A DNA stretch of 22,425 nt from Utricularia gibba (lineage: Eukaryota > Streptophyta > Magnoliopsida > Lamiales > Lentibulariaceae), in the NCBI GenBank assembly GCA_002189035.1, contig NEEC01000183.1, forward strand, positions 1 to 22,425. The letters are read 5' to 3'. Of the stretch, positions 1-22,425 are shown piece after piece; position 1 is the first letter of the stretch, and the number at the start of each line of letters is the position of its first letter. The notes beneath the pieces are model-generated. The model was not told where the DNA came from, did not search any database, and saw only the letters and a program-made list of their open reading frames with translations. Made by a program: the position numbers and the translations under genes.

Positions 1-226
1 TCAACAAAATGTGTCACGATTTTCGCCGAGTGGGACCAGAGTGGGCTCATCAGCCAGACCGAACCCGGGGCCCAAGCCAAGGGCCCCTCGAGAGCGCCCC
101 CCCACAAAACTAGATGGTGTTCCACGAAAAAAAATTAGGCGGCTCGTGATAACCCAACGCTAAGAAATGCATCCCTTTTTTCGCCGGGCTAAAACTGACT
201 TTGGGCTCATGCCCGGCGCGACCCCC
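1..226 (+). repeat. Monomers A3 and truncated B3, left edge of window
   Basis: This is the end of a ~150 bp monomer block whose beginning lies outside the window. A3 runs from the edge to about 142. B3 (CGTGATAACCCAACGC and onward) loses similarity to the other B monomers after GCGACCCCC at 226. Confidence 0.85.
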
Positions 227-382
227 AGCCCGTGTGCATACGCAGCAGCACCACGAGGCCACATGGGCTTGGTTAATGCCCGCGTGCTCGAGCAGCAGCC
301 ACAAGGCCATACGGCCGTGGAAAAAAAGAAAAACAACCATAAAATACAATAAGCCAAAAATAAAAAATAAAATTGATAAACC
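227..382. other. Unrecognised segment: GC-rich, then A-rich
   Basis: Positions 227-320 are GC-rich with several CAGCAG steps. Positions 320-382 are A-rich (runs of A7, A5 and A6 and repeated AAAATAA-like steps). Neither part matches the ~150 bp monomers or the foldback element. No gene, RNA motif or known element is recognised. The same segment lies between the truncated B3 monomer and the hAT-like segment in every unit. Open frames of 60-100 codons cross it on both strands in more than one frame. None has a family resemblance, so I treat them as chance. Confidence 0.6.
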
Positions 383-536
383 CTTGGTTCGGTTCGGGCC
401 CAATCAAAACCCGTAGGGTTTAACCCGTTCGGGTTGAACAGAAAGACAACCCCATGGGTCATGCAAACTGTAATACCCAGAATTTCATCGGTTGGGTCCG
501 AACCTGAATGGATCCAACCCAGGCCCATCTCTAATC
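383..536 (-). mobile_element. Possible hAT transposon terminal fragment
   Basis: On the minus strand, inward from position 533, the sequence reads TAGAGATGGGCC. It is then rich in GGGTT, CGGGCC and AACCCG motifs, including GGGTTTAACCCG and GGTTCGGTTCGGGCCC. Many plant hAT elements begin with (C/T)AGAGATGG followed by subterminal GGGTTCGGGCC-type repeats, which is the basis for the call. I could not find a matching opposite terminus or an 8 bp target duplication, so it is at best an element end. It lies immediately left of the foldback in every unit. It could instead be a low-complexity GC-rich sequence of other origin. Confidence 0.3.
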
Positions 537-641
537 ATAATCATATGATATAGGTTTATTAAATTATAAATAATTGAAATACATTATTTATTAAACCGTA
601 GGATAACTGTGAAAGCTTCTTTGACTTAATTATTACCATTT

Positions 642-1013
642 GATCCTCAGTTGTACTTTGGATGGAGTGTGTATTTTTACTTTAGTCAATTTAATTAGCA
701 TTCGATCCTTGGTTATGATTCAGATCATATTTGCTATTTTTTTACTTTAAATATTTTTATTATCATTCGATCCTTAAGTATAATGCGGATCGAGCGCGTA
801 TTTTTTATTTTAATATTTTTATTAGCATTCGAACGTTAGGTATGCTGCGGATCGAGCGTATATTTTTCACTCTCATATTTTTATTAGCCTTAGATCCTTA
901 GGTATACTTTGGATCGAGTGCATATTCATTTATTTTAAATCTTAATTAGCGTTCCACCGTTAGGAGCAATTTAGAACGTGTATACATTACAATGCCATGC
1001 CACACGGGCGTGG
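642..1013 (+). repeat. Left-arm ~62 bp tandem subrepeats (six)
   Basis: The anchor GATCC or a variant (in the setting TTAGCATTCGATCCTTAGG) occurs at 642, 704, 769, 831 (GAACG), 893 and 955 (CACCG). Spacings are 62, 65, 62, 62 and 62 bp. Between anchors the pattern is TAT.ATGCGGATCGAGCG followed by an AT-rich tract. The sixth copy runs into the GC-rich tip. This series recurs in all ten units. Confidence 0.85.
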
Positions 1014-1074
1014 TTTACGCACAACCCACGCCCGTGTGCCCTTGCAATGTAAACACGCTCCACATTGCTCCTAA
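960..1074. repeat. GC-rich hairpin tip of the foldback
   Basis: The core stem CACACGGGCGTGG (1001-1013) pairs perfectly with CCACGCCCGTGTG (1026-1038) across a 12-base loop. Outward, the stem continues imperfectly through TACATT/AATGTA and ACGTGT/ACACGC to TTAGGAGCAAT (960-970) against ATTGCTCCTAA (1064-1074). It is the most GC-rich part of an otherwise AT-rich element and is present in all ten units. In unit 10 the left stem has an extra CA. Confidence 0.9.
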
Positions 1075-1330
1075 GGATCGAGCGTTAACACAAGTTTCAA
1101 GTAAACCATCTCCACTCGATCCGAATCATGTCTAAAGACCGAAAGCCAATAAAAATATTAAAATAAAAAATATACGCTCGATCCGCATCATATCTTAGAA
1201 TCGAATGCAAATAGAATCGTTCAAATAAAAAATATACACTCGATTGGAATCTTAACCAAGGATCGAATGCTAATTAAAATGATTAAAATAAAAATGCACA
1301 CTCCATCCAAAGTATAACTAAGGGTCGAAT
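1026..1330 (-). repeat. Right-arm ~62 bp tandem subrepeats (five, inverted)
   Basis: The reverse-complement anchors (GGATC or a variant) start at 1075, 1136 (AGACC), 1198 (GAATC), 1260 and 1322 (GGGTC). Spacings are 61, 62, 62 and 62 bp. The units read in the opposite direction to the left-arm units, so they pair with them. One left-arm unit has no partner. Confidence 0.85.
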
Positions 1331-1444
1331 GCTAATAAAATTAAAAACTAAGAAACTTTCACATGTAGTATATGCTTTAATAACTAACGTATTTACATTA
1401 TTTATATTTTAATAAACATATATCACATGATTATAAAAATATTT

Positions 1445-1700
1445 TTTTTGTCATTGTAGAAAGCTCATCACGCCACGCACACCACCCTGGAGAGGTTTCA
1501 ACAGCTGTTATGAACTCACAACCCCTTGCTCAGCAGATTCAGTAAAATTCTCTAACACTTGGGCTTCCAACGGATCATATCCCATATTCATTCATACGAA
1601 ATTGTGCAAGAATAATGTGACTTTGAGTTTGAACTAGATAGTAGGACGCTGATCGAAGAATGGCCCATCGAGTCTCTAAAATTGGCCGTCCTCGCTCAAC
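1445..1700 (-). pseudogene. PIF/Harbinger-type transposase, C-terminal fragment, copy 1
   Basis: Read on the minus strand from 1700, the translation begins VER, then ETRWAILRSASYYLVQTQ and HIILA. This fits the plant PIF/Harbinger (DDE_Tnp_4-like) nuclease pattern VERxFGxLKxRWxILR..SYYPxKTQ..IILACCxLHNF. At about 1605 the frame shifts; the CC-containing residues of that motif are missing, consistent with a ~10-11 base deletion. Reading continues as HNFV, an in-frame TGA at 1592-1594, then MNMGYDPLEAQVLENF. The TGA sits where Arg is usual. A second frame change near 1510-1530 restores the first frame, which reads ITAVETSPGW then CAWRDELSTM. This matches the family's usual C-terminal W..WRDxLAxxM motif. 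The fragment is cut on its 3' side next to the foldback and on its 5' side by satellite monomers. In known family members this is the last quarter or less of the protein. It is non-functional. The E in VER may be the third catalytic acid, but I am not certain. Confidence 0.78.
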
Positions 1701-1714
1701 AAATGTGGGGTGCA

Positions 1715-1861
1715 CGTGACATCCCAATTTCAACAAATGCATCATGATTTTCGTCGAGTGGGCCCATGAGCCCGTCCGAACCCGGGGCCCGGGCCAAGGG
1801 CCCCTCGAGAGCGCCCGCCTCAATACGAGGAGGTGTTCCTTCAAAAACCATATACGCGTCT
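1715..1861 (+). repeat. Monomer A1 (147 bp)
   Basis: Begins CGTGACATCCCAATTTC and holds a GC palindrome-rich core (CCCGGGGCCCGGGCC). It ends in an AAAAACCATATACGCGTCT tail. A CACGTG box overlaps its start (1713-1718). Confidence 0.85.
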
Positions 1862-2020
1862 CGTCACAACCCAACGTTAATAAATGCATCACTTTTTTTG
1901 GCGCGCTACTGCTGACTTTGGGCCTGAGTTCGGCACGACCTCCGGCTCGATCAGGGTGCCCCACCGAGAGCTCCTCCTTAAGTATAAAGTGTGTTGTTGA
2001 AAAAAACCGTGTGCGGTTCT
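1862..2020 (+). repeat. Monomer B1 (159 bp)
   Basis: Begins CGTCACAACCCAACG and contains TTTGGCGCGCTACTGCTGAC. Near its end it has GTATAAAG (1982-1989) followed by TGTGTTGTTGAAAAAAACC. The inserted A at 1963 lies inside it. Confidence 0.85.
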
Positions 2021-2164
2021 CGTGACATCCTAACTTCAACAAATGCATCACGATTTTCGTCGAGTCGGACGGGACCGGGCTCCCGGGGCCCGGACGAGGC
2101 GCAGCGCCCGCTCCCCTCCCCCCCAAAACTAGAAGGTGTTCCATGGAAAACCATTTAGGCGGCT
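2021..2164 (+). repeat. Monomer A2 (144 bp)
   Basis: Begins CGTGACATCCTAACTTC and contains GGGCTCCCGGGGCCCGG and a seven-C run. It ends AGGTGTTCCATGGAAAACC then ATTTAGGCGGCT. The C run is six long in the matching monomers at 4452 and 6785. Confidence 0.85.
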
Positions 2165-2320
2165 CGTGACAACCCAAAGTTAATAAATGCATCACTTTCT
2201 TTGCCGGGCTACAATGACTTTACGCTCGAGCCTGGTACGACGTATGGGAAGATTCGAGTGCCCCCCGAGAGCGTCTCCACAAGTATAAAGCGTGTTGTTG
2301 AAAAAACCGTGTTGGGTGCA
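2165..2320 (+). repeat. Monomer B2 (156 bp)
   Basis: Begins CGTGACAACCCAAAG and contains TTTCTTTGCCGGGCTACAA. It ends with GTATAAAG (2283-2290), CGTGTTGTTGAAAAAACC and a CACGTG box at the junction with A3 (2319-2324). Confidence 0.85.
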
Positions 2321-2477
2321 CGTGACATCCTAATTTCAACAAATGTGTCACGATTTTCGCCGAGTGGGACCAGAGTGGGCTCATCAGCCAGACCGAACCC
2401 GGGGCCCAAGCCAAGGGCCCCTCGAGAGCGCCCCCCACAAAACTAGATGGTGTTCCACGAAAAAAAATTAGGCGGCT
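2321..2477 (+). repeat. Monomer A3 (157 bp)
   Basis: Begins CGTGACATCCTAATTTC and carries AAATGTGTCA in place of AAATGCATCA. It contains AACCCGGGGCCCAAGCC and ends with GTGTTCCACGAAAAAAAA then TTAGGCGGCT. Confidence 0.85.
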
Positions 2478-2559
2478 CGTGATAACCCAACGCTAAGAAA
2501 TGCATCCCTTTTTTCGCCGGGCTAAAACTGACTTTGGGCTCATGCCCGGCGCGACCCCC
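2478..2559 (+). repeat. Monomer B3, truncated (82 bp)
   Basis: Begins CGTGATAACCCAACGC and matches B1 through GACTTTGGGCTCATGCCCG and GCGCGACCCCC. It then ends at the unrecognised GC-rich segment, losing roughly half of a monomer. This is a fixed breakpoint in all units. Confidence 0.8.
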
Positions 2560-2870
2560 AGCCCGTGTGCATACGCAGCAGCACCACGAGGCCACATGGG
2601 CTTGGTTAATGCCCGCGTGCTCGAGCAGCAGCCACAAGGCCATACGGCCGTGGAAAAAAAGAAAAACAACCATAAAATACAATAAGCCAAAAATAAAAAA
2701 TAAAATTGATAAACCCTTGGTTCGGTTCGGGCCCAATCAAAACCCGTAGGGTTTAACCCGTTCGGGTTGAACAGAAAGACAACCCCATGGGTCATGCAAA
2801 CTGTAATACCCAGAATTTCATCGGGTTGGGTCCGAACCTGAATGGATCCAACCCAGGCCCATCTCTAATC

Positions 2871-3769
2871 ATAATCATATGATATAGGTTTATTAAATTA
2901 TAAATAATTGAAATACATTATTTATTAAACCGTAGGATAACTGTGAAAGCTTCTTTGACTTAATTATTACCATTTGATCCTCAGTTGTACTTTGGATGGA
3001 GTGTGTATTTTTACTTTAGTCAATTTAATTAGCATTCGATCCTTGGTTATGATTCAGATCATATTTGCTATTTTTTTACTTTAAATATTTTTATTATCAT
3101 TCGATCCTTAAGTATAATGCGGATCGAGCGCGTATTTTTTATTTTAATATTTTTTATTAGCATTCGAACGTTAGGTATGCTGCGGATCGAGCGTATATTT
3201 TTCACTCTCATATTTTTATTAGCCTTAGATCCTTAGGTATACTTTGGATCGAGTGCATATTCATTTATTTTAAATCTTAATTAGCGTTCCACCGTTAGGA
3301 GCAATTTAGAACGTGTATACATTACAATGCCATGCCACACGGGCGTGGTTTACGCACAACCCACGCCCGTGTGCCCTTGCAATGTAAACACGCTCCACAT
3401 TGCTCCTAAGGATCGAGCGTTAACACAAGTTTCAAGTAAACCATCTCCACTCGATCCGAATCATGTCTAAAGACCGAAAGCCAATAAAAATATTAAAATA
3501 AAAAATATACGCTCGATCCGCATCATATCTTAGAATCGAATGCAAATAGAATCGTTCAAATAAAAAATATACACTCGATTGGAATCTTAACCAAGGATCG
3601 AATGCTAATTAAAATGATTAAAATAAAAATGCACACTCCATCCAAAGTATAACTAAGGGTCGAATGCTAATAAAATTAAAAACTAAGAAACTTTCACATG
3701 TAGTATATGCTTTAATAACTAACGTATTTACATTATTTATATTTTAATAAACATATATCACATGATTAT
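2871..3769. mobile_element. Foldback element, copy 2
   Basis: 899 bp, the consensus length, one T longer than copy 1 in a T run. Same outer ends (ATAATCATATGAT and CATGATTAT) and same tip. Confidence 0.85.
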
Positions 3770-3779
3770 AAAAATATTT

Positions 3780-4035
3780 TTTTTGTCATTGTAGAAAGCT
3801 CATCACGCCACGCACACCACCCTGGAGAGGTTTCAACAGCTGTTATGAACTCACAACCCCTTGCTCAGCAGATTCAGTAAAATTCTCTAACACTTGGGCT
3901 TCCAACGGATCATATCCCATATTCATTCATACGAAATTGTGCAAGAATAATGTGACTTTGAGTTTGAACTAGATAGTAGGACGCTGATCGAAGAATGGCC
4001 CATCGAGTCTCTAAAATTGGCCGTCCTCGCTCAAC
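3780..4035 (-). pseudogene. PIF/Harbinger-type transposase fragment, copy 2
   Basis: Same three lesions and same truncation points as copy 1. The first frame meets its TGA at 3910-3912. Confidence 0.75.
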
Positions 4036-4893
4036 AAATGTGGGGTGCACGTGACATCCCAATTTCAACAAATGCATCATGATTTTCGTCGAGTGGGCCC
4101 ATGAGCCCGTCCGAACCCGGGGCCCGGGCCAAGGGCCCCTCGAGAGCGCCCGCCTCAATACGAGGAGGTGTTCCTTCAAAAACCATATACGCGTCTCGTC
4201 ACAACCCAACGTTAATAAATGCATCACTTTTTTTGGCGCGCTACTGCTGACTTTGGGCCTGAGTTCGGCACGACCTCCGGCTCGATCAGGGTGCCCCCCG
4301 AGAGCTCCTCCTTAAGTATAAAGTGTGTTGTTGAAAAAAACCGTGTGCGGTTCTCGTGACATCCTAACTTCAACAAATGCATCACGATTTTCGTCGAGTC
4401 GGACGGGACCGGGCTCCCGGGGCCCGGACGAGGCGCAGCGCCCGCTCCCCTCCCCCCAAAACTAGAAGGTGTTCCATGGAAAACCATTTAGGCGGCTCGT
4501 GACAACCCAAAGTTAATAAATGCATCACTTTCTTTGCCGGGCTACAATGACTTTACGCTCGAGCCTGGTACGACGTATGGGAAGATTCGAGTGCCCCCCG
4601 AGAGCGTCTCCACAAGTATAAAGCGTGTTGTTGAAAAAACCGTGTTGGGTGCACGTGACATCCTAATTTCAACAAATGTGTCACGATTTTCGCCGAGTGG
4701 GACCAGAGTGGGCTCATCAGCCAGACCGAACCCGGGGCCCAAGCCAAGGGCCCCTCGAGAGCGCCCCCCCACAAAACTAGATGGTGTTCCACGAAAAAAA
4801 ATTAGGCGGCTCGTGATAACCCAACGCTAAGAAATGCATCCCTTTTTTCGCCGGGCTAAAACTGACTTTGGGCTCATGCCCGGCGCGACCCCC
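4036..4893 (+). repeat. Block 2 of A/B monomers
   Basis: Six monomers. The B1 C run lacks the inserted A and A2 has a six-C run, so the minus-strand frame is interrupted here compared with block 1. Confidence 0.88.
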
Positions 4894-5203
4894 AGCCCGT
4901 GTGCATACGCAGCAGCACCACGAGGCCACATGGGCTTGGTTAATGCCCGCGTGCTCGAGCAGCAGCCACAAGGCCATACGGCCGTGGAAAAAAAGAAAAC
5001 AACCATAAAATACAATAAGCCAAAAATAAAAAATAAAATTGATAAACCCTTGGTTCGGTTCGGGCCCAATCAAAACCCGTAGGGTTTAACCCGTTCGGGT
5101 TGAACAGAAAGACAACCCCATGGGTCATGCAAACTGTAATACCCAGAATTTCATCGGGTTGGGTCCGAACCTGAATGGATCCAACCCAGGCCCATCTCTA
5201 ATC

Positions 5204-6102
5204 ATAATCATATGATATAGGTTTATTAAATTATAAATAATTGAAATACATTATTTATTAAACCGTAGGATAACTGTGAAAGCTTCTTTGACTTAATTAT
5301 TACCATTTGATCCTCAGTTGTACTTTGGATGGAGTGTGTATTTTTACTTTAGTCAATTTAATTAGCATTCGATCCTTGGTTATGATTCAGATCATATTTG
5401 CTATTTTTTTACTTTAAATATTTTTATTATCATTCGATCCTTAAGTATAATGCGGATCGAGCGCGTATTTTTTATTTTAATATTTTTTATTAGCATTCGA
5501 ACGTTAGGTATGCTGCGGATCGAGCGTATATTTTTCACTCTCATATTTTTATTAGCCTTAGATCCTTAGGTATACTTTGGATCGAGTGCATATTCATTTA
5601 TTTTAAATCTTAATTAGCGTTCCACCGTTAGGAGCAATTTAGAACGTGTATACATTACAATGCCATGCCACACGGGCGTGGTTTACGCACAACCCACGCC
5701 CGTGTGCCCTTGCAATGTAAACACGCTCCACATTGCTCCTAAGGATCGAGCGTTAACACAAGTTTCAAGTAAACCATCTCCACTCGATCCGAATCATGTC
5801 TAAAGACCGAAAGCCAATAAAAATATTAAAATAAAAAATATACGCTCGATCCGCATCATATCTTAGAATCGAATGCAAATAGAATCGTTCAAATAAAAAA
5901 TATACACTCGATTGGAATCTTAACCAAGGATCGAATGCTAATTAAAATGATTAAAATAAAAATGCACACTCCATCCAAAGTATAACTAAGGGTCGAATGC
6001 TAATAAAATTAAAAACTAAGAAACTTTCACATGTAGTATATGCTTTAATAACTAACGTATTTACATTATTTATATTTTAATAAACATATATCACATGATT
6101 AT
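5204..6102. mobile_element. Foldback element, copy 3
   Basis: 899 bp with consensus ends and tip. No copy-specific change was noticed. Confidence 0.85.
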
Positions 6103-6112
6103 AAAAATATTT

Positions 6113-6368
6113 TTTTTGTCATTGTAGAAAGCTCATCACGCCACGCACACCACCCTGGAGAGGTTTCAACAGCTGTTATGAACTCACAACCCCTTGCTCA
6201 GCAGATTCAGTAAAATTCTCTAACACTTGGGCTTCCAACGGATCATATCCCATATTCATTCATACGAAATTGTGCAAGAATAATGTGACTTTGAGTTTGA
6301 ACTAGATAGTAGGACGCTGATCGAAGAATGGCCCATCGAGTCTCTAAAATTGGCCGTCCTCGCTCAAC
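6113..6368 (-). pseudogene. PIF/Harbinger-type transposase fragment, copy 3
   Basis: Lesions identical to copy 1. The first-frame stop is at 6243-6245. Confidence 0.75.
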
Positions 6369-7226
6369 AAATGTGGGGTGCACGTGACATCCCAATTTCA
6401 ACAAATGCATCATGATTTTCGTCGAGTGGGCCCATGAGCCCGTCCGAACCCGGGGCCCGGGCCAAGGGCCCCTCGAGAGCGCCCGCCTCAATACGAGGAG
6501 GTGTTCCTTCAAAAACCATATACGCGTCTCGTCACAACCCAACGTTAATAAATGCATCACTTTTTTTGGCGCGCTACTGCTGACTTTGGGCCTGAGTTCG
6601 GCACGACCTCCGGCTCGATCAGGGTGCCCCCCGAGAGCTCCTCCTTAAGTATAAAGTGTGTTGTTGAAAAAAACCGTGTGCGGTTCTCGTGACATCCTAA
6701 CTTCAACAAATGCATCACGATTTTCGTCGAGTCGGACGGGACCGGGCTCCCGGGGCCCGGACGAGGCGCAGCGCCCGCTCCCCTCCCCCCAAAACTAGAA
6801 GGTGTTCCATGGAAAACCATTTAGGCGGCTCGTGACAACCCAAAGTTAATAAATGCATCACTTTCTTTGCCGGGCTACAATGACTTTACGCTCGAGCCTG
6901 GTACGACGTATGGGAAGATTCGAGTGCCCCCCGAGAGCGTCTCCACAAGTATAAAGCGTGTTGTTGAAAAAACCGTGTTGGGTGCACGTGACATCCTAAT
7001 TTCAACAAATGTGTCACGATTTTCGCCGAGTGGGACCAGAGTGGGCTCATCAGCCAGACCGAACCCGGGGCCCAAGCCAAGGGCCCCTCGAGAGCGCCCC
7101 CCCACAAAACTAGATGGTGTTCCACGAAAAAAAATTAGGCGGCTCGTGATAACCCAACGCTAAGAAATGCATCCCTTTTTTCGCCGGGCTAAAACTGACT
7201 TTGGGCTCATGCCCGGCGCGACCCCC
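6369..7226 (+). repeat. Block 3 of A/B monomers
   Basis: Six monomers, with a six-C run in A2 at 6785-6790. Confidence 0.88.
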
Positions 7227-7537
7227 AGCCCGTGTGCATACGCAGCAGCACCACGAGGCCACATGGGCTTGGTTAATGCCCGCGTGCTCGAGCAGCAGCC
7301 ACAAGGCCATACGGCCGTGGAAAAAAAGAAAAACAACCATAAAATACAATAAGCCAAAAATAAAAAATAAAATTGATAAACCCTTGGTTCGGTTCGGGCC
7401 CAATCAAAACCCGTAGGGTTTAACCCGTTCGGGTTGAACAGAAAGACAACCCCATGGGTCATGCAAACTGTAATACCCAGAATTTCATCGGGTTGGGTCC
7501 GAACCTGAATGGATCCAACCCAGGCCCATCTCTAATC

Positions 7538-8436
7538 ATAATCATATGATATAGGTTTATTAAATTATAAATAATTGAAATACATTATTTATTAAACCGT
7601 AGGATAACTGTGAAAGCTTCTTTGACTTAATTATTACCATTTGATCCTCAGTTGTACTTTGGATGGAGTGTGTATTTTTACTTTAGTCAATTTAATTAGC
7701 ATTCGATCCTTGGTTATGATTCAGATCATATTTGCTATTTTTTTACTTTAAATATTTTTATTATCATTCGATCCTTAAGTATAATGCGGATCGAGCGCGT
7801 ATTTTTTATTTTAATATTTTTTATTAGCATTCGAACGTTAGGTATGCTGCGGATCGAGCGTATATTTTTCACTCTCATATTTTTATTAGCCTTAGATCCT
7901 TAGGTATACTTTGGATCGAGTGCATATTCATTTATTTTAAATCTTAATTAGCGTTCCACCGTTAGGAGCAATTTAGAACGTGTATACATTACAATGCCAT
8001 GCCACACGGGCGTGGTTTACGCACAACCCACGCCCGTGTGCCCTTGCAATGTAAACACGCTCCACATTGCTCCTAAGGATCGAGCGTTAACACAAGTTTC
8101 AAGTAAACCATCTCCACTCGATCCGAATCATGTCTAAAGACCGAAAGCCAATAAAAATATTAAAATAAAAAATATACGCTCGATCCGCATCATATCTTAG
8201 AATCGAATGCAAATAGAATCGTTCAAATAAAAAATATACACTCGATTGGAATCTTAACCAAGGATCGAATGCTAATTAAAATGATTAAAATAAAAATGCA
8301 CACTCCATCCAAAGTATAACTAAGGGTCGAATGCTAATAAAATTAAAAACTAAGAAACTTTCACATGTAGTATATGCTTTAATAACTAACGTATTTACAT
8401 TATTTATATTTTAATAAACATATATCACATGATTAT
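7538..8436. mobile_element. Foldback element, copy 4
   Basis: 899 bp, consensus copy. Confidence 0.85.
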
Positions 8437-8446
8437 AAAAATATTT

Positions 8447-8702
8447 TTTTTGTCATTGTAGAAAGCTCATCACGCCACGCACACCACCCTGGAGAGGTTT
8501 CAACAGCTGTTATGAACTCACAACCCCTTGCTCAGCAGATTCAGTAAAATTCTCTAACACTTGGGCTTCCAACGGATCATATCCCATATTCATTCATACG
8601 AAATTGTGCAAGAATAATGTGACTTTGAGTTTGAACTAGATAGTAGGACGCTGATCGAAGAATGGCCCATCGAGTCTCTAAAATTGGCCGTCCTCGCTCA
8701 AC
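8447..8702 (-). pseudogene. PIF/Harbinger-type transposase fragment, copy 4
   Basis: Lesions identical to copy 1. The first-frame stop is at 8577-8579. Confidence 0.75.
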
Positions 8703-9561
8703 AAATGTGGGGTGCACGTGACATCCCAATTTCAACAAATGCATCATGATTTTCGTCGAGTGGGCCCATGAGCCCGTCCGAACCCGGGGCCCGGGCCAAG
8801 GGCCCCTCGAGAGCGCCCGCCTCAATACGAGGAGGTGTTCCTTCAAAAACCATATACGCGTCTCGTCACAACCCAACGTTAATAAATGCATCACTTTTTT
8901 TGGCGCGCTACTGCTGACTTTGGGCCTGAGTTCGGCACGACCTCCGGCTCGATCAGGGTGCCCCCCGAGAGCTCCTCCTTAAGTATAAAGTGTGTTGTTG
9001 AAAAAAACCGTGTGCGGTTCTCGTGACATCCTAACTTCAACAAATGCATCACGATTTTCGTCGAGTCGGACGGGACCGGGCTCCCGGGGCCCGGACGAGG
9101 CGCAGCGCCCGCTCCCCTCCCCCCCAAAACTAGAAGGTGTTCCATGGAAAACCATTTAGGCGGCTCGTGACAACCCAAAGTTAATAAATGCATCACTTTC
9201 TTTGCCGGGCTACAATGACTTTACGCTCGAGCCTGGTACGACGTATGGGAAGATTCGAGTGCCCCCCGAGAGCGTCTCCACAAGTATAAAGCGTGTTGTT
9301 GAAAAAACCGTGTTGGGTGCACGTGACATCCTAATTTCAACAAATGTGTCACGATTTTCGCCGAGTGGGACCAGAGTGGGCTCATCAGCCAGACCGAACC
9401 CGGGGCCCAAGCCAAGGGCCCCTCGAGAGCGCCCCCCCACAAAACTAGATGGTGTTCCACGAAAAAAAATTAGGCGGCTCGTGATAACCCAACGCTAAGA
9501 AATGCATCCCTTTTTTCGCCGGGCTAAAACTGACTTTGGGCTCATGCCCGGCGCGACCCCC
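8703..9561 (+). repeat. Block 4 of A/B monomers
   Basis: Six monomers with consensus run lengths (six C in B1, seven C in A2, seven C in A3). Confidence 0.88.
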
Positions 9562-9872
9562 AGCCCGTGTGCATACGCAGCAGCACCACGAGGCCACATG
9601 GGCTTGGTTAATGCCCGCGTGCTCGAGCAGCAGCCACAAGGCCATACGGCCGTGGAAAAAAAGAAAAACAACCATAAAATACAATAAGCCAAAAATAAAA
9701 AATAAAATTGATAAACCCTTGGTTCGGTTCGGGCCCAATCAAAACCCGTAGGGTTTAACCCGTTCGGGTTGAACAGAAAGACAACCCCATGGGTCATGCA
9801 AACTGTAATACCCAGAATTTCATCGGGTTGGGTCCGAACCTGAATGGATCCAACCCAGGCCCATCTCTAATC

Positions 9873-10771
9873 ATAATCATATGATATAGGTTTATTAAAT
9901 TATAAATAATTGAAATACATTATTTATTAAACCGTAGGATAACTGTGAAAGCTTCTTTGACTTAATTATTACCATTTGATCCTCAGTTGTACTTTGGATG
10001 GAGTGTGTATTTTTACTTTAGTCAATTTAATTAGCATTCGATCCTTGGTTATGATTCAGATCATATTTGCTATTTTTTTACTTTAAATATTTTTATTATC
10101 ATTCGATCCTTAAGTATAATGCGGATCGAGCGCGTATTTTTTATTTTAATATTTTTTATTAGCATTCGAACGTTAGGTATGCTGCGGATCGAGCGTATAT
10201 TTTTCACTCTCATATTTTTATTAGCCTTAGATCCTTAGGTATACTTTGGATCGAGTGCATATTCATTTATTTTAAATCTTAATTAGCGTTCCACCGTTAG
10301 GAGCAATTTAGAACGTGTATACATTACAATGCCATGCCACACGGGCGTGGTTTACGCACAACCCACGCCCGTGTGCCCTTGCAATGTAAACACGCTCCAC
10401 ATTGCTCCTAAGGATCGAGCGTTAACACAAGTTTCAAGTAAACCATCTCCACTCGATCCGAATCATGTCTAAAGACCGAAAGCCAATAAAAATATTAAAA
10501 TAAAAAATATACGCTCGATCCGCATCATATCTTAGAATCGAATGCAAATAGAATCGTTCAAATAAAAAATATACACTCGATTGGAATCTTAACCAAGGAT
10601 CGAATGCTAATTAAAATGATTAAAATAAAAATGCACACTCCATCCAAAGTATAACTAAGGGTCGAATGCTAATAAAATTAAAAACTAAGAAACTTTCACA
10701 TGTAGTATATGCTTTAATAACTAACGTATTTACATTATTTATATTTTAATAAACATATATCACATGATTAT
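9873..10771. mobile_element. Foldback element, copy 5
   Basis: 899 bp, consensus copy. Confidence 0.85.
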
Positions 10772-10781
10772 AAAAATATTT

Positions 10782-11037
10782 TTTTTGTCATTGTAGAAAG
10801 CTCATCACGCCACGCACACCACCCTGGAGAGGTTTCAACAGCTGTTATGAACTCACAACCCCTTGCTCAGCAGATTCAGTAAAATTCTCTAACACTTGGG
10901 CTTCCAACGGATCATATCCCATATTCATTCATACGAAATTGTGCAAGAATAATGTGACTTTGAGTTTGAACTAGATAGTAGGACGCTGATCGAAGAATGG
11001 CCCATCGAGTCTCTAAAATTGGCCGTCCTCGCTCAAC
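10782..11037 (-). pseudogene. PIF/Harbinger-type transposase fragment, copy 5
   Basis: Lesions identical to copy 1. The first-frame stop is at 10912-10914. Confidence 0.75.
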
Positions 11038-11896
11038 AAATGTGGGGTGCACGTGACATCCCAATTTCAACAAATGCATCATGATTTTCGTCGAGTGGGC
11101 CCATGAGCCCGTCCGAACCCGGGGCCCGGGCCAAGGGCCCCTCGAGAGCGCCCGCCTCAATACGAGGAGGTGTTCCTTCAAAAACCATATACGCGTCTCG
11201 TCACAACCCAACGTTAATAAATGCATCACTTTTTTTGGCGCGCTACTGCTGACTTTGGGCCTGAGTTCGGCACGACCTCCGGCTCGATCAGGGTGCCCCC
11301 CGAGAGCTCCTCCTTAAGTATAAAGTGTGTTGTTGAAAAAAACCGTGTGCGGTTCTCGTGACATCCTAACTTCAACAAATGCATCACGATTTTCGTCGAG
11401 TCGGACGGGACCGGGCTCCCGGGGCCCGGACGAGGCGCAGCGCCCGCTCCCCTCCCCCCCAAAACTAGAAGGTGTTCCATGGAAAACCATTTAGGCGGCT
11501 CGTGACAACCCAAAGTTAATAAATGCATCACTTTCTTTGCCGGGCTACAATGACTTTACGCTCGAGCCTGGTACGACGTATGGGAAGATTCGAGTGCCCC
11601 CCGAGAGCGTCTCCACAAGTATAAAGCGTGTTGTTGAAAAAACCGTGTTGGGTGCACGTGACATCCTAATTTCAACAAATGTGTCACGATTTTCGCCGAG
11701 TGGGACCAGAGTGGGCTCATCAGCCAGACCGAACCCGGGGCCCAAGCCAAGGGCCCCTCGAGAGCGCCCCCCCACAAAACTAGATGGTGTTCCACGAAAA
11801 AAAATTAGGCGGCTCGTGATAACCCAACGCTAAGAAATGCATCCCTTTTTTCGCCGGGCTAAAACTGACTTTGGGCTCATGCCCGGCGCGACCCCC
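11038..11896 (+). repeat. Block 5 of A/B monomers
   Basis: Six monomers with consensus run lengths. Confidence 0.88.
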
Positions 11897-12207
11897 AGCC
11901 CGTGTGCATACGCAGCAGCACCACGAGGCCACATGGGCTTGGTTAATGCCCGCGTGCTCGAGCAGCAGCCACAAGGCCATACGGCCGTGGAAAAAAAGAA
12001 AAACAACCATAAAATACAATAAGCCAAAAATAAAAAATAAAATTGATAAACCCTTGGTTCGGTTCGGGCCCAATCAAAACCCGTAGGGTTTAACCCGTTC
12101 GGGTTGAACAGAAAGACAACCCCATGGGTCATGCAAACTGTAATACCCAGAATTTCATCGGGTTGGGTCCGAACCTGAATGGATCCAACCCAGGCCCATC
12201 TCTAATC

Positions 12208-13106
12208 ATAATCATATGATATAGGTTTATTAAATTATAAATAATTGAAATACATTATTTATTAAACCGTAGGATAACTGTGAAAGCTTCTTTGACTTAA
12301 TTATTACCATTTGATCCTCAGTTGTACTTTGGATGGAGTGTGTATTTTTACTTTAGTCAATTTAATTAGCATTCGATCCTTGGTTATGATTCAGATCATA
12401 TTTGCTATTTTTTTACTTTAAATATTTTTATTATCATTCGATCCTTAAGTATAATGCGGATCGAGCGCGTATTTTTTATTTTAATATTTTTTATTAGCAT
12501 TCGAACGTTAGGTATGCTGCGGATCGAGCGTATATTTTTCACTCTCATATTTTTATTAGCCTTAGATCCTTAGGTATACTTTGGATCGAGTGCATATTCA
12601 TTTATTTTAAATCTTAATTAGCGTTCCACCGTTAGGAGCAATTTAGAACGTGTATACATTACAATGCCATGCCACACGGGCGTGGTTTACGCACAACCCA
12701 CGCCCGTGTGCCCTTGCAATGTAAACACGCTCCACATTGCTCCTAAGGATCGAGCGTTAACACAAGTTTCAAGTAAACCATCTCCACTCGATCCGAATCA
12801 TGTCTAAAGACCGAAAGCCAATAAAAATATTAAAATAAAAAATATACGCTCGATCCGCATCATATCTTAGAATCGAATGCAAATAGAATCGTTCAAATAA
12901 AAAATATACACTCGATTGGAATCTTAACCAAGGATCGAATGCTAATTAAAATGATTAAAATAAAAATGCACACTCCATCCAAAGTATAACTAAGGGTCGA
13001 ATGCTAATAAAATTAAAAACTAAGAAACTTTCACATGTAGTATATGCTTTAATAACTAACGTATTTACATTATTTATATTTTAATAAACATATATCACAT
13101 GATTAT
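12208..13106. mobile_element. Foldback element, copy 6
   Basis: 899 bp, consensus copy. Confidence 0.85.
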
Positions 13107-13116
13107 AAAAATATTT

Positions 13117-13372
13117 TTTTTGTCATTGTAGAAAGCTCATCACGCCACGCACACCACCCTGGAGAGGTTTCAACAGCTGTTATGAACTCACAACCCCTTG
13201 CTCAGCAGATTCAGTAAAATTCTCTAACACTTGGGCTTCCAACGGATCATATCCCATATTCATTCATACGAAATTGTGCAAGAATAATGTGACTTTGAGT
13301 TTGAACTAGATAGTAGGACGCTGATCGAAGAATGGCCCATCGAGTCTCTAAAATTGGCCGTCCTCGCTCAAC
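13117..13372 (-). pseudogene. PIF/Harbinger-type transposase fragment, copy 6
   Basis: Lesions identical to copy 1. The first-frame stop is at 13247-13249. Confidence 0.75.
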
Positions 13373-14230
13373 AAATGTGGGGTGCACGTGACATCCCAAT
13401 TTCAACAAATGCATCATGATTTTCGTCGAGTGGGCCCATGAGCCCGTCCGAACCCGGGGCCCGGGCCAAGGGCCCCTCGAGAGCGCCCGCCTCAATACGA
13501 GGAGGTGTTCCTTCAAAAACCATATACGCGTCTCGTCACAACCCAACGTTAATAAATGCATCACTTTTTTTGGCGCGCTACTGCTGACTTTGGGCCTGAG
13601 TTCGGCACGACCTCCGGCTCGATCAGGGTGCCCCCCGAGAGCTCCTCCTTAAGTATAAAGTGTGTTGTTGAAAAAAACCGTGTGCGGTTCTCGTGACATC
13701 CTAACTTCAACAAATGCATCACGATTTTCGTCGAGTCGGACGGGACCGGGCTCCCGGGGCCCGGACGAGGCGCAGCGCCCGCTCCCCTCCCCCCCAAAAC
13801 TAGAAGGTGTTCCATGGAAAACCATTTAGGCGGCTCGTGACAACCCAAAGTTAATAAATGCATCACTTTCTTTGCCGGGCTACAATGACTTTACGCTCGA
13901 GCCTGGTACGACGTATGGGAAGATTCGAGTGCCCCCCGAGAGCGTCTCCACAAGTATAAAGCGTGTTGTTGAAAAAACCGTGTTGGGTGCACGTGACATC
14001 CTAATTTCAACAAATGTGTCACGATTTTCGCCGAGTGGGACCAGAGTGGGCTCATCAGCCAGACCGAACCCGGGGCCCAAGCCAAGGGCCCCTCGAGAGC
14101 GCCCCCCACAAAACTAGATGGTGTTCCACGAAAAAAAATTAGGCGGCTCGTGATAACCCAACGCTAAGAAATGCATCCCTTTTTTCGCCGGGCTAAAACT
14201 GACTTTGGGCTCATGCCCGGCGCGACCCCC
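13373..14230 (+). repeat. Block 6 of A/B monomers
   Basis: Six monomers. A3 has a six-C run at 14102-14107, as in block 1 at 2431-2436. Confidence 0.88.
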
Positions 14231-14541
14231 AGCCCGTGTGCATACGCAGCAGCACCACGAGGCCACATGGGCTTGGTTAATGCCCGCGTGCTCGAGCAGC
14301 AGCCACAAGGCCATACGGCCGTGGAAAAAAAGAAAAACAACCATAAAATACAATAAGCCAAAAATAAAAAATAAAATTGATAAACCCTTGGTTCGGTTCG
14401 GGCCCAATCAAAACCCGTAGGGTTTAACCCGTTCGGGTTGAACAGAAAGACAACCCCATGGGTCATGCAAACTGTAATACCCAGAATTTCATCGGGTTGG
14501 GTCCGAACCTGAATGGATCCAACCCAGGCCCATCTCTAATC

Positions 14542-15440
14542 ATAATCATATGATATAGGTTTATTAAATTATAAATAATTGAAATACATTATTTATTAAA
14601 CCGTAGGATAACTGTGAAAGCTTCTTTGACTTAATTATTACCATTTGATCCTCAGTTGTACTTTGGATGGAGTGTGTATTTTTACTTTAGTCAATTTAAT
14701 TAGCATTCGATCCTTGGTTATGATTCAGATCATATTTGCTATTTTTTTACTTTAAATATTTTTATTATCATTCGATCCTTAAGTATAATGCGGATCGAGC
14801 GCGTATTTTTTATTTTAATATTTTTTATTAGCATTCGAACGTTAGGTATGCTGCGGATCGAGCGTATATTTTTCACTCTCATATTTTTATTAGCCTTAGA
14901 TCCTTAGGTATACTTTGGATCGAGTGCATATTCATTTATTTTAAATCTTAATTAGCGTTCCACCGTTAGGAGCAATTTAGAACGTGTATACATTACAATG
15001 CCATGCCACACGGGCGTGGTTTACGCACAACCCACGCCCGTGTGCCCTTGCAATGTAAACACGCTCCACATTGCTCCTAAGGATCGAGCGTTAACACAAG
15101 TTTCAAGTAAACCATCTCCACTCGATCCGAATCATGTCTAAAGACCGAAAGCCAATAAAAATATTAAAATAAAAAATATACGCTCGATCCGCATCATATC
15201 TTAGAATCGAATGCAAATAGAATCGTTCAAATAAAAAATATACACTCGATTGGAATCTTAACCAAGGATCGAATGCTAATTAAAATGATTAAAATAAAAA
15301 TGCACACTCCATCCAAAGTATAACTAAGGGTCGAATGCTAATAAAATTAAAAACTAAGAAACTTTCACATGTAGTATATGCTTTAATAACTAACGTATTT
15401 ACATTATTTATATTTTAATAAACATATATCACATGATTAT
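14542..15440. mobile_element. Foldback element, copy 7
   Basis: 899 bp, consensus copy. Confidence 0.85.
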
Positions 15441-15450
15441 AAAAATATTT

Positions 15451-15706
15451 TTTTTGTCATTGTAGAAAGCTCATCACGCCACGCACACCACCCTGGAGAG
15501 GTTTCAACAGCTGTTATGAACTCACAACCCCTTGCTCAGCAGATTCAGTAAAATTCTCTAACACTTGGGCTTCCAACGGATCATATCCCATATTCATTCA
15601 TACGAAATTGTGCAAGAATAATGTGACTTTGAGTTTGAACTAGATAGTAGGACGCTGATCGAAGAATGGCCCATCGAGTCTCTAAAATTGGCCGTCCTCG
15701 CTCAAC
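15451..15706 (-). pseudogene. PIF/Harbinger-type transposase fragment, copy 7
   Basis: Lesions identical to copy 1. As in unit 1, the flanking monomers stay in frame with it, giving a 206-codon minus-strand open frame (15581-16201). Confidence 0.75.
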
Positions 15707-16566
15707 AAATGTGGGGTGCACGTGACATCCCAATTTCAACAAATGCATCATGATTTTCGTCGAGTGGGCCCATGAGCCCGTCCGAACCCGGGGCCCGGGC
15801 CAAGGGCCCCTCGAGAGCGCCCGCCTCAATACGAGGAGGTGTTCCTTCAAAAACCATATACGCGTCTCGTCACAACCCAACGTTAATAAATGCATCACTT
15901 TTTTTGGCGCGCTACTGCTGACTTTGGGCCTGAGTTCGGCACGACCTCCGGCTCGATCAGGGTGCCCCACCGAGAGCTCCTCCTTAAGTATAAAGTGTGT
16001 TGTTGAAAAAAACCGTGTGCGGTTCTCGTGACATCCTAACTTCAACAAATGCATCACGATTTTCGTCGAGTCGGACGGGACCGGGCTCCCGGGGCCCGGA
16101 CGAGGCGCAGCGCCCGCTCCCCTCCCCCCCAAAACTAGAAGGTGTTCCATGGAAAACCATTTAGGCGGCTCGTGACAACCCAAAGTTAATAAATGCATCA
16201 CTTTCTTTGCCGGGCTACAATGACTTTACGCTCGAGCCTGGTACGACGTATGGGAAGATTCGAGTGCCCCCCGAGAGCGTCTCCACAAGTATAAAGCGTG
16301 TTGTTGAAAAAACCGTGTTGGGTGCACGTGACATCCTAATTTCAACAAATGTGTCACGATTTTCGCCGAGTGGGACCAGAGTGGGCTCATCAGCCAGACC
16401 GAACCCGGGGCCCAAGCCAAGGGCCCCTCGAGAGCGCCCCCCCACAAAACTAGATGGTGTTCCACGAAAAAAAATTAGGCGGCTCGTGATAACCCAACGC
16501 TAAGAAATGCATCCCTTTTTTCGCCGGGCTAAAACTGACTTTGGGCTCATGCCCGGCGCGACCCCC
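15707..16566 (+). repeat. Block 7 of A/B monomers
   Basis: Six monomers. B1 has the inserted A at 15969, shared only with block 1. Confidence 0.88.
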
Positions 16567-16877
16567 AGCCCGTGTGCATACGCAGCAGCACCACGAGGCC
16601 ACATGGGCTTGGTTAATGCCCGCGTGCTCGAGCAGCAGCCACAAGGCCATACGGCCGTGGAAAAAAAGAAAAACAACCATAAAATACAATAAGCCAAAAA
16701 TAAAAAATAAAATTGATAAACCCTTGGTTCGGTTCGGGCCCAATCAAAACCCGTAGGGTTTAACCCGTTCGGGTTGAACAGAAAGACAACCCCATGGGTC
16801 ATGCAAACTGTAATACCCAGAATTTCATCGGGTTGGGTCCGAACCTGAATGGATCCAACCCAGGCCCATCTCTAATC

Positions 16878-17776
16878 ATAATCATATGATATAGGTTTAT
16901 TAAATTATAAATAATTGAAATACATTATTTATTAAACCGTAGGATAACTGTGAAAGCTTCTTTGACTTAATTATTACCATTTGATCCTCAGTTGTACTTT
17001 GGATGGAGTGTGTATTTTTACTTTAGTCAATTTAATTAGCATTCGATCCTTGGTTATGATTCAGATCATATTTGCTATTTTTTTACTTTAAATATTTTTA
17101 TTATCATTCGATCCTTAAGTATAATGCGGATCGAGCGCGTATTTTTTATTTTAATATTTTTTATTAGCATTCGAACGTTAGGTATGCTGCGGATCGAGCG
17201 TATATTTTTCACTCTCATATTTTTATTAGCCTTAGATCCTTAGGTATACTTTGGATCGAGTGCATATTCATTTATTTTAAATCTTAATTAGCGTTCCACC
17301 GTTAGGAGCAATTTAGAACGTGTATACATTACAATGCCATGCCACACGGGCGTGGTTTACGCACAACCCACGCCCGTGTGCCCTTGCAATGTAAACACGC
17401 TCCACATTGCTCCTAAGGATCGAGCGTTAACACAAGTTTCAAGTAAACCATCTCCACTCGATCCGAATCATGTCTAAAGACCGAAAGCCAATAAAAATAT
17501 TAAAATAAAAAATATACGCTCGATCCGCATCATATCTTAGAATCGAATGCAAATAGAATCGTTCAAATAAAAAATATACACTCGATTGGAATCTTAACCA
17601 AGGATCGAATGCTAATTAAAATGATTAAAATAAAAATGCACACTCCATCCAAAGTATAACTAAGGGTCGAATGCTAATAAAATTAAAAACTAAGAAACTT
17701 TCACATGTAGTATATGCTTTAATAACTAACGTATTTACATTATTTATATTTTAATAAACATATATCACATGATTAT
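16878..17776. mobile_element. Foldback element, copy 8
   Basis: 899 bp, consensus copy. Confidence 0.85.
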
Positions 17777-17786
17777 AAAAATATTT

Positions 17787-18042
17787 TTTTTGTCATTGTA
17801 GAAAGCTCATCACGCCACGCACACCACCCTGGAGAGGTTTCAACAGCTGTTATGAACTCACAACCCCTTGCTCAGCAGATTCAGTAAAATTCTCTAACAC
17901 TTGGGCTTCCAACGGATCATATCCCATATTCATTCATACGAAATTGTGCAAGAATAATGTGACTTTGAGTTTGAACTAGATAGTAGGACGCTGATCGAAG
18001 AATGGCCCATCGAGTCTCTAAAATTGGCCGTCCTCGCTCAAC
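17787..18042 (-). pseudogene. PIF/Harbinger-type transposase fragment, copy 8
   Basis: Lesions identical to copy 1. The first-frame stop is at 17917-17919. Confidence 0.75.
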
Positions 18043-18900
18043 AAATGTGGGGTGCACGTGACATCCCAATTTCAACAAATGCATCATGATTTTCGTCGAG
18101 TGGGCCCATGAGCCCGTCCGAACCCGGGGCCCGGGCCAAGGGCCCCTCGAGAGCGCCCGCCTCAATACGAGGAGGTGTTCCTTCAAAAACCATATACGCG
18201 TCTCGTCACAACCCAACGTTAATAAATGCATCACTTTTTTTGGCGCGCTACTGCTGACTTTGGGCCTGAGTTCGGCACGACCTCCGGCTCGATCAGGGTG
18301 CCCCCCGAGAGCTCCTCCTTAAGTATAAAGTGTGTTGTTGAAAAAAACGTGTGCGGTTCTCGTGACATCCTAACTTCAACAAATGCATCACGATTTTCGT
18401 CGAGTCGGACGGGACCGGGCTCCCGGGGCCCGGACGAGGCGCAGCGCCCGCTCCCCTCCCCCCCAAAACTAGAAGGTGTTCCATGGAAAACCATTTAGGC
18501 GGCTCGTGACAACCCAAAGTTAATAAATGCATCACTTTCTTTGCCGGGCTACAATGACTTTACGCTCGAGCCTGGTACGACGTATGGGAAGATTCGAGTG
18601 CCCCCCGAGAGCGTCTCCACAAGTATAAAGCGTGTTGTTGAAAAAACCGTGTTGGGTGCACGTGACATCCTAATTTCAACAAATGTGTCACGATTTTCGC
18701 CGAGTGGGACCAGAGTGGGCTCATCAGCCAGACCGAACCCGGGGCCCAAGCCAAGGGCCCCTCGAGAGCGCCCCCCCACAAAACTAGATGGTGTTCCACG
18801 AAAAAAAATTAGGCGGCTCGTGATAACCCAACGCTAAGAAATGCATCCCTTTTTTCGCCGGGCTAAAACTGACTTTGGGCTCATGCCCGGCGCGACCCCC
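18043..18900 (+). repeat. Block 8 of A/B monomers
   Basis: Six monomers, with one C missing at about 18348 at the end of B1. Confidence 0.88.
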
Positions 18901-19210
18901 AGCCCGTGTGCATACGCAGCAGCACCACGAGGCCACATGGGCTTGGTTAATGCCCGCGTGCTCGAGCAGCAGCCACAAGGCCATACGGCCGTGGAAAAAA
19001 AGAAAAACAACCATAAAATACAATAAGCCAAAAATAAAAATAAAATTGATAAACCCTTGGTTCGGTTCGGGCCCAATCAAAACCCGTAGGGTTTAACCCG
19101 TTCGGGTTGAACAGAAAGACAACCCCATGGGTCATGCAAACTGTAATACCCAGAATTTCATCGGGTTGGGTCCGAACCTGAATGGATCCAACCCAGGCCC
19201 ATCTCTAATC

Positions 19211-20109
19211 ATAATCATATGATATAGGTTTATTAAATTATAAATAATTGAAATACATTATTTATTAAACCGTAGGATAACTGTGAAAGCTTCTTTGACT
19301 TAATTATTACCATTTGATCCTCAGTTGTACTTTGGATGGAGTGTGTATTTTTACTTTAGTCAATTTAATTAGCATTCGATCCTTGGTTATGATTCAGATC
19401 ATATTTGCTATTTTTTTACTTTAAATATTTTTATTATCATTCGATCCTTAAGTATAATGCGGATCGAGCGCGTATTTTTTATTTTAATATTTTTTATTAG
19501 CATTCGAACGTTAGGTATGCTGCGGATCGAGCGTATATTTTTCACTCTCATATTTTTATTAGCCTTAGATCCTTAGGTATACTTTGGATCGAGTGCATAT
19601 TCATTTATTTTAAATCTTAATTAGCGTTCCACCGTTAGGAGCAATTTAGAACGTGTATACATTACAATGCCATGCCACACGGGCGTGGTTTACGCACAAC
19701 CCACGCCCGTGTGCCCTTGCAATGTAAACACGCTCCACATTGCTCCTAAGGATCGAGCGTTAACACAAGTTTCAAGTAAACCATCTCCACTCGATCCGAA
19801 TCATGTCTAAAGACCGAAAGCCAATAAAAATATTAAAATAAAAAATATACGCTCGATCCGCATCATATCTTAGAATCGAATGCAAATAGAATCGTTCAAA
19901 TAAAAAATATACACTCGATTGGAATCTTAACCAAGGATCGAATGCTAATTAAAATGATTAAAATAAAAATGCACACTCCATCCAAAGTATAACTAAGGGT
20001 CGAATGCTAATAAAATTAAAAACTAAGAAACTTTCACATGTAGTATATGCTTTAATAACTAACGTATTTACATTATTTATATTTTAATAAACATATATCA
20101 CATGATTAT
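19211..20109. mobile_element. Foldback element, copy 9
   Basis: 899 bp, consensus copy. Confidence 0.85.
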
Positions 20110-20119
20110 AAAAATATTT

Positions 20120-20375
20120 TTTTTGTCATTGTAGAAAGCTCATCACGCCACGCACACCACCCTGGAGAGGTTTCAACAGCTGTTATGAACTCACAACCCC
20201 TTGCTCAGCAGATTCAGTAAAATTCTCTAACACTTGGGCTTCCAACGGATCATATCCCATATTCATTCATACGAAATTGTGCAAGAATAATGTGACTTTG
20301 AGTTTGAACTAGATAGTAGGACGCTGATCGAAGAATGGCCCATCGAGTCTCTAAAATTGGCCGTCCTCGCTCAAC
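20120..20375 (-). pseudogene. PIF/Harbinger-type transposase fragment, copy 9
   Basis: Lesions identical to copy 1. The first-frame stop is at 20250-20252. This is the last copy in the window; unit 10 ends before this module. Confidence 0.75.
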
Positions 20376-21230
20376 AAATGTGGGGTGCACGTGACATCCC
20401 AATTTCAACAAATGCATCATGATTTTCGTCGAGTGGGCCCATGAGCCCGTCCGAACCCGGGGCCCGGGCCAAGGGCCCCTCGAGAGCGCCCGCCTCAATA
20501 CGAGGAGGTGTTCCTTCAAAAACCATATACGCGTCTCGTCACAACCCAACGTTAATAAATGCATCACTTTTTTTGGCGCGCTACTGCTGACTTTGGGCCT
20601 GAGTTCGGCACGACCTCCGGCTCGATCAGGGTGCCCCCCGAGAGCTCCTCCTTAAGTATAAAGTGTGTTGTTGAAAAAAACCGTGTGCGGTTCTCGTGAC
20701 ATCCTAACTTCAACAAATGCATCACGATTTTCGTCGAGTCGGACGGGACCGGGCTCCCGGGGCCCGGACGAGGCGCAGCGCCCGCTCCCCTCCCCCCCAA
20801 AACTAGAAGGTGTTCCATGGAAAACCATTTAGGCGGCTCGTGACAACCCAAAGTTAATAAATGCATCACTTTCTTTGCCGGGCTACAATGACTTTACGCT
20901 CGAGCCTGGTACGACGTATGGGAAGATTCGAGTGCCCCCGAGAGCGTCTCCACAAGTATAAAGCGTGTTGTTGAAAAAACCGTGTTGGGTGCACGTGACA
21001 TCCTAATTTCAACAAATGTGTCACGATTTTCGCCGAGTGGGACCAGAGTGGGCTCATCAGCCAGACCGAACCCGGGCCCAAGCCAAGGGCCCTCGAGAGC
21101 GCCCCCCCACAAAACTAGATGGTGTTCCACGAAAAAAAATTAGGCGGCTCGTGATAACCCAACGCTAAGAAATGCATCCCTTTTTTCGCCGGCTAAAACT
21201 GACTTTGGGCTCATGCCCGGCGCGACCCCC
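20376..21230 (+). repeat. Block 9 of A/B monomers
   Basis: Six monomers with four one-base deletions: a C at about 20935, a G at about 21074, a C at about 21090 and a G at about 21191. These lie at the start of the error-like cluster. Confidence 0.86.
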
Positions 21231-22425
21231 AGCCCGTGTGCATACGCAGCAGCACCACGAGGCCACATGGGCTTGGTTAATGCCCGCGTGCTCGAGCAGC
21301 AGCCACAAGGCCATACGGCCGTGGAAAAAAAGAAAAACAACCATAAAATACAATAAGCCAAAAAAAAAAATAAAATTGATAAACCCTTGGTTCGGTTCGG
21401 GCCCAATCAAACCCGTAGGGTTTAACCCGTTCGGGTTGAACAGAAAGACAACCCATGGGTCATGCAAACTGTAATACCCAGAATTTCATCGGGTTGGGTC
21501 CGAACCTGAATGGATCCAACCCAGGCCCATCTCTAATCATAATCATATGATATAGGTTTATTAAATTATAAATAATTGAAATACATTATTTATTAAACCG
21601 TAGGATAACTGTGAAAGCTTCTTTGACTTAATTATTACCATTTGATCCTCAGTTGTACTTTGGATGGAGTGTGTATTTTTACTTTAGTCAATTTAATTAG
21701 CATTCGATCCTTGGTTATGATTCAGATCATATTTGCTATTTTTTTACTTTAAATATTTTTATTATCATTCGATCCTTAAGTATAATGCGGATCGAGCGCG
21801 TATTTTTTATTTTAATATTTTTTATTAGCATTCGAACGTTAGGTATGCTGCGGATCGAGCGTATATTTTTCACACTCTCATATTTTTATTAGCCTTAGAT
21901 CCTTAGGTATACTTTGGATCGAGTGCATATTCATTTATTTTAAATCTTAATTAGCGTTCCACCGTTAGGAGCAATTTAGAACGTGTATACATTACAATGC
22001 CATGCCACACACGGGCGTGGTTTACGCACAACCCACGCCCGTGTGCCCTTGCAATGTAAACACGCTCCACATTGCTCCTAAGGATCGAGCGTTAACACAA
22101 GTTTCAAGTAAACCATCTCCACTCGATCCGAATCATGTCTAAAGACCGAAAGCCAATAAAATATTAAAATAAAAAATATATACGCTCGATCCGCATCATA
22201 TCTTAGAATCGAATGCAAATAGAATCGTTCAAATAAAAAATATACACTCGATTGGAATCTTAACCAAGGATCGAATGCTAATTAAAATGATTAAAATAAA
22301 AATGCACACTCCATCCAAAGTATAACTAAGGGTCGAATGCTAATAAAATTAAAAACTAAGAAACTTTCACATGTAGTATATGCTTTAATAACTAACGTAT
22401 TTACATTATTTATATTTTAATAAAC
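21009..22425 (+). repeat. Satellite unit 10, partial (1417 bp)
   Basis: The unit is cut by the window edge inside the right arm of the foldback element, about 16 bp before that arm's usual end. It carries about ten small indels, nearly all single-base changes in homopolymers or extra dinucleotides (CA, AC, TA). The full units carry none to four each. Confidence 0.93.
21539..22425. mobile_element. Foldback element, copy 10 (cut by window end)
   Basis: The left arm is complete and the right arm lacks about 16 bp. It carries an extra CA at about 21871, an extra CA at the tip at about 22007, one A fewer at about 22160, and an extra AT at about 22178. Confidence 0.83.

Follow-up and report, generated by a model that had tools for sequence, protein, structure and literature searches.

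A tandem array in Utricularia gibba, apparently recently amplified, that probably joins an older satellite to transposon-like debris

Contig NEEC01000183.1 of the Utricularia gibba assembly GCA_002189035.1 provided the stretch of DNA analysed here (positions 1-22,425 of the forward strand, hereafter the window), which is made of one tandem repeat from end to end. We propose, at a probability of about 0.68, that the repeat is a composite (higher-order) satellite, in which an older run of alternating A and B monomers was joined to transposon debris and the product was recently amplified head to tail. Every unit carries the same modules in the same order, namely a hAT-like end, a foldback element, a PIF/Harbinger-like piece and the block of A/B monomers. 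The age layers of the array are well separated, with 0 substitutions between units against 15-32% divergence between monomers, and the parts can be delimited within a few bases.

Results

The array spans the whole window (1-22,425, plus strand) as 9.6 head-to-tail units of ~2,335 bp, as determined by MAFFT alignment and by comparison with a central unit, and the sequence is still within the array at both ends. One complete unit, unit 1, lies at 452-2784 on the plus strand of the window, its phase being arbitrary. The nine full units measure 2,328-2,336 bp, and none of the 36 pairwise comparisons in this alignment contains a mismatch. Two central copies, units 4 and 5, are identical and 2,335 bp long each, in agreement with the initial annotation of this DNA, made from the sequence alone, which had claimed a tandem unit of 2335 bp with its parts in fixed order. 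Comparison of the window with the central unit, partial end segments included, gave 0 substitutions, 17 deleted bases and 9 inserted bases. These 26 indel bases represent 23 events (three insertions are 2 bases long); units 4 and 5 contain none of them, and 14 fall in the two rightmost segments of the window, numbers 9 and 10 (19125-22425, the last 3.3 kb). The gradient toward the right looks like consensus quality dropping toward the contig ends, which matters to anyone using NEEC01000183.1.

The A/B block extends from 1704 to 2565 on the plus strand and, according to the monomer alignments, is composed of A1-B1-A2-B2-A3-B3, the last monomer being truncated. The alternation is strict and has no phase break inside the unit. 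Full monomers are 144-158 bp long, giving an A/B dimer of ~302 bp, and the G+C content of the block is 55%. Identity reaches 82-85% among A monomers and 79-80% among B monomers, and it is 68-76% between the two types. Each of the 15 monomer pairs outscored all 100 base shuffles made for it, which shows that the A/B monomers are real.

The joins between modules were probed with 40-mers at four positions, copies being located with up to 2 edits allowed. Each 40-mer was exact in all of its copies: 10/10 for the join of B3 to the hAT-like segment, 10/10 for hAT-like to foldback, 9/9 for foldback to PIF-like and 9/9 for PIF-like to A1. The claim of the initial annotation that the junctions are the same in every unit therefore holds, and its breakpoints agree within a few bases with those found here (B3 ending at 232 or 222, foldback arms at 537 and 1434, resumption of A1 at ~1704). 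The B3/hAT-like junction is a zone at 222-232 (2555-2565 in the next copy; plus strand), placed by the 40-mer and by monomer homology, which ends at 232 when measured with B1 and at 222 when measured with B2. The PIF-like/A1 junction is at 1703-1704 (plus strand), placed by the 40-mer and by monomer register.

Because the junctions are identical across units, it is supported that a single founder gave rise to all of them. The parts of the unit are also older than the amplification, since the monomers are 15-32% and the outer arms of the foldback 17% diverged while the units lack substitutions. To this extent the sequence of events proposed earlier, rearrangement first and amplification afterwards, stands. 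Its stronger form, in which the finished mosaic preceded amplification, applies to every junction with the possible exception of one and is unproven, because closing a tandem array itself makes one junction. Either B3/hAT-like or PIF-like/A1, both of which are joins of truncated parts, could be this amplification join.

A possible variant, which we consider clearly less probable, is that the transposon block sits inside a regular A/B array, that in-register recombination between dimers hides the amplification join, and that both junctions between satellite and debris are ancestral. The unbroken A-B order within the unit is consistent with this scenario, as is the small amount of satellite that the transposon block replaces, which by hand arithmetic comes to only part of a single B monomer (~59 bp measured with B1, ~68 bp with B2) and leaves the flanking satellite near register. 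With a period of ~302 bp, however, a gap of this size (60-70 bp) is not a rare chance outcome. Moreover, neither satellite junction has a recognised transposon terminus and both look illegitimate anyway, and the alternative, in which B3/hAT-like or PIF-like/A1 is the amplification join, does not require additional events.

For the origin of the composite satellite, we suggest that an older run of ~150-bp A/B monomers, which may have been either a genomic satellite or a tandem repeat inside another element, was fused through illegitimate breakage with nested transposon debris, which would have comprised a truncated hAT-like end, the foldback and a truncated PIF-like transposase piece. One mosaic segment of ~2.3 kb would then have been copied head to tail very recently, most likely via an excised circle and rolling replication, or by unequal exchange. 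We infer both the chromosomal location of the array and this circle or unequal-exchange step, and the motifs in the debris point to a host that is probably a flowering plant. That the amplification was very recent is suggested by the lack of substitutions between copies. At a plant mutation rate of 7e-9 per site per year, a count below 3 substitutions over the 22.4 kb would place the spread within ~19,000 years (10,000-21,000 across the three rates tried), a bound which assumes that each copy has been resolved individually and that homogenisation has played no part.

It is unlikely that the contig is instead an unrolled small circle, either extrachromosomal circular DNA of satellite origin or a rolling-circle product of the library, in which 2,335 bp were read 9.6 times. 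Such an origin would accord with the 0 substitutions, with the concentration of indels at the contig ends and with the position of both contig ends inside the array. It would also accord with a survey in which all plant satellite families studied yielded circles, with a preference for sizes that are multiples of the monomer or of the higher-order repeat (PMC2543021). However, a young chromosomal array would look alike, and the window carries no mark of a circle.

The foldback is an imperfect inverted repeat of 898 bp at 537-1434 (no strand assigned), defined by arm alignment and folding. Its outer arms are 83% identical over 188 aligned positions, i.e., 17% diverged, both arms contain subrepeats of ~62 bp, and in the central stem 987-1016 pairs with 1023-1052 (30 nt each). 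The folding energy is -213 kcal/mol, compared with -76 +/- 5.7 kcal/mol for 20 shuffles (z = -24), and the inverted repeat is firm. Long terminal inverted repeats that contain tandem subrepeats are typical of a foldback, and the element has them; no target-site duplication was found, so it is named by structure alone.

The segment at 233-533 (minus strand) resembles the end of a hAT element. The sequence TAGAGATGGGC at 523-533, similar to a terminal inverted repeat, forms its minus-strand terminus and resembles a hAT terminal repeat, so that the segment is a putative hAT end. A hAT element would have two terminal inverted repeats and an 8-bp duplication; in the unit, one such end-like sequence was recognised by eye, and no second end was recognised in this way. 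A G/C-rich module of 17 nt occurs both at the start of this segment (258-274) and in the centre of the foldback (999-1015), with 15/17 positions identical; 5 of 1000 shuffles scored at least as high, and for a 19-nt inverted match 20 of 1000 did so. The first ~100 bp of the hAT-like segment may belong to another element.

The remaining module, at 1452-1706 on the minus strand, is a candidate degenerate C-terminal piece of a PIF/Harbinger transposase. It is spread over three frames and was recognised by its motifs; Pfam did not confirm it. Presumably the motifs RWAILRS...TQSHIILA (from translation), HNF..DPLE and WCAWRDELS (both read by eye) belong to the C-terminal region of PIF/Harbinger transposases of plants. 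Of 32 residues, 17 are identical to an intact plant PIF-like peptide of 46 residues, a match that serves as a lead only, the choice of peptide having been prompted by the window. As a control, this 46-residue peptide matched DDE_Tnp_4 (PF13359) at 7.6e-8, and the profile therefore covers the C-terminal region. The piece would hold just the end of the DDE domain, with a gap. Judged by its motifs, 1452-1706 is a probable remnant of a PIF-like transposase.

Several results weigh against our proposal. The identity of the central copies could stem partly from consensus building, and a single-copy stage of the mosaic lacks direct support, as the window holds no flanks and no progenitor locus. The ends of the foldback lack any direct repeat of at least 5 bp, the longest exact match near them being 4 bp; its flanks may have been lost during the rearrangement. 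Nine peptides, six of which cover parts of the PIF-like piece on the reading strand, gave no Pfam transposase family, and the earlier designation as a dead PIF/Harbinger transposase fragment was not confirmed; nor was the hAT name, with one end recognised. Searches of the PDB gave nothing transposase-like either, neither with the 43-residue piece (one match, E 4) nor with the read-through peptide (six matches, E values up to 10). The last of these points concerns the bases next to A1, which weakly resemble a B monomer in phase: when 1600-1703 was aligned end-anchored with B1 and with B2, 21 and 30 shuffles out of 1000, respectively, scored at least as high.

This last result is the one expected if ~1610-1703, instead of being transposase, were a B monomer (B0) that keeps phase with A1 and has diverged strongly, in which case the unit would contain more satellite and less transposon; the local alignments from A1 that continued into the PIF-like piece point in the same direction. 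Free local alignment does not bear this out. Its scores lie within the shuffled range: for 1600-1703, at least 69 of 1000 shuffles did as well in every one of 28 comparisons (4 of them duplicates), and for 1452-1703 at least 129 of 1000 in all 28. In addition, the PIF-like motifs are collinear on the minus strand across the whole of 1452-1706, where the 17/32 identity to the plant peptide also lies. We consider a B0 monomer improbable.

Two kinds of database match to these peptides are mentioned for completeness. The sole Pfam match of the nine was to an EF-hand-associated family (E 0.14 and 0.17, below the family cut-off). In the PDB, the best four matches of the read-through peptide were to pentatricopeptide-type repeat proteins (best E 0.0004), with no single stretch passing alone, and these were taken as chance.

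Just as improbable is a known plant satellite or a ribosomal intergenic spacer repeat, for although the unit size is compatible with a spacer repeat, no ribosomal RNA (rRNA) family is present in the 22.4 kb and six strings from the unit found no match in the literature text searched. The initial annotation had named ribosomal DNA or its spacer as an identity that would overturn its view; the Rfam scan of the window returned 0 matches at the gathering score, hence no rRNA gene. The failure of the six short strings to occur in the literature searched is weak evidence for an undescribed family. Of little weight are searches of non-plant collections: unit 1 had no blastn match among plasmid and phage records; in viral contigs, DNA patterns for four parts of the unit (A monomer, B monomer, foldback subrepeat and a PIF-like motif) had 0 occurrences each; prokaryote genome contigs likewise gave 0 for each of two patterns, one from the B monomer and one from the hAT-like end; and of 7 stretches in viral contigs that matched a pattern of the read-through transposase peptide, tblastn confirmed none.

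Discussion

The route by which a satellite arises as a composite of transposon fragments is already known, and the array described here appears to be an unusually clean and very young case of it. For rye E3900/D1100 and wild potato Sobo, the likenesses are drawn from published descriptions. Among the closest known systems are E3900 and D1100 of the rye B chromosome (PMC9659126), which bears kilobase satellites seemingly built from fragments of mobile and other elements (PMC6210368, PMC3648361). E3900 is described as having Ty3-gypsy sequence and D1100 a rearranged miniature inverted-repeat transposable element (PMC3648361), whereas the unit in the window combines DNA-transposon-like debris with an older A/B tandem repeat. 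Sobo of wild potato also unites satellite and transposon sequence: its 4.7-kb unit is described as similar to a retrotransposon long terminal repeat (LTR), to a satellite repeat and to genomic DNA (PMC3648361). Its mobile part is an LTR element, where our unit carries hAT-like, foldback and PIF-like pieces.

In Drosophila virilis, a foldback whose long inverted repeats contain internal tandem repeats, Tetris / TIR-220, contributes to a satellite (PMC4079207). There, the internal repeats themselves expand, while in the window the entire foldback forms a single module within a larger unit; the target-site duplication reported for Tetris is 8-10 bp (PMC4079207). The maize CRM1TR and CRM4TR repeats are likewise tandem repeats that arose by transposon rearrangement and have a characteristic new junction (PMC3648361), but they derive from centromeric retrotransposons and not from DNA-transposon-like pieces and an older tandem repeat. 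Among the matches listed in the literature searched, which leaves out most subscription papers, none was, by its title and the first part of its abstract, a satellite of matching make-up.

Old arrays lose the traces of their birth, so the origins of satellites are hard to see. Here, the birth seems recent enough that a single-copy progenitor may survive in the same or a sister species, and such a progenitor would make the order of the joins and the amplification join directly readable.

We propose no function for the array and, pending evidence to the contrary, regard it as neutral or parasitic DNA; the search for a function was confined to the list of open reading frames, Rfam, Pfam and a CENP-B-box pattern. 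The CENP-B-box pattern had 0 occurrences on both strands of the whole window, and with one substitution allowed 0 on both strands of the first 2,335 bases.

We speculate, although we hold it improbable, that the 898-bp near-complete palindrome of the foldback extrudes as a cruciform in every unit, breaks there, and fuels circle excision and rolling copying. If this were true, the array would be a self-propelling satellite with a dead transposon as its engine.

Depletion of CpG is expected in old methylated plant repeats, and the values of two modules are unusual against that expectation. The A/T-rich foldback (537-1434) has an observed/expected CpG ratio of 1.67 and the satellite one of 1.03, i.e., neither is depleted. 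CGATC motifs sit in the 62-bp subrepeats of the foldback.

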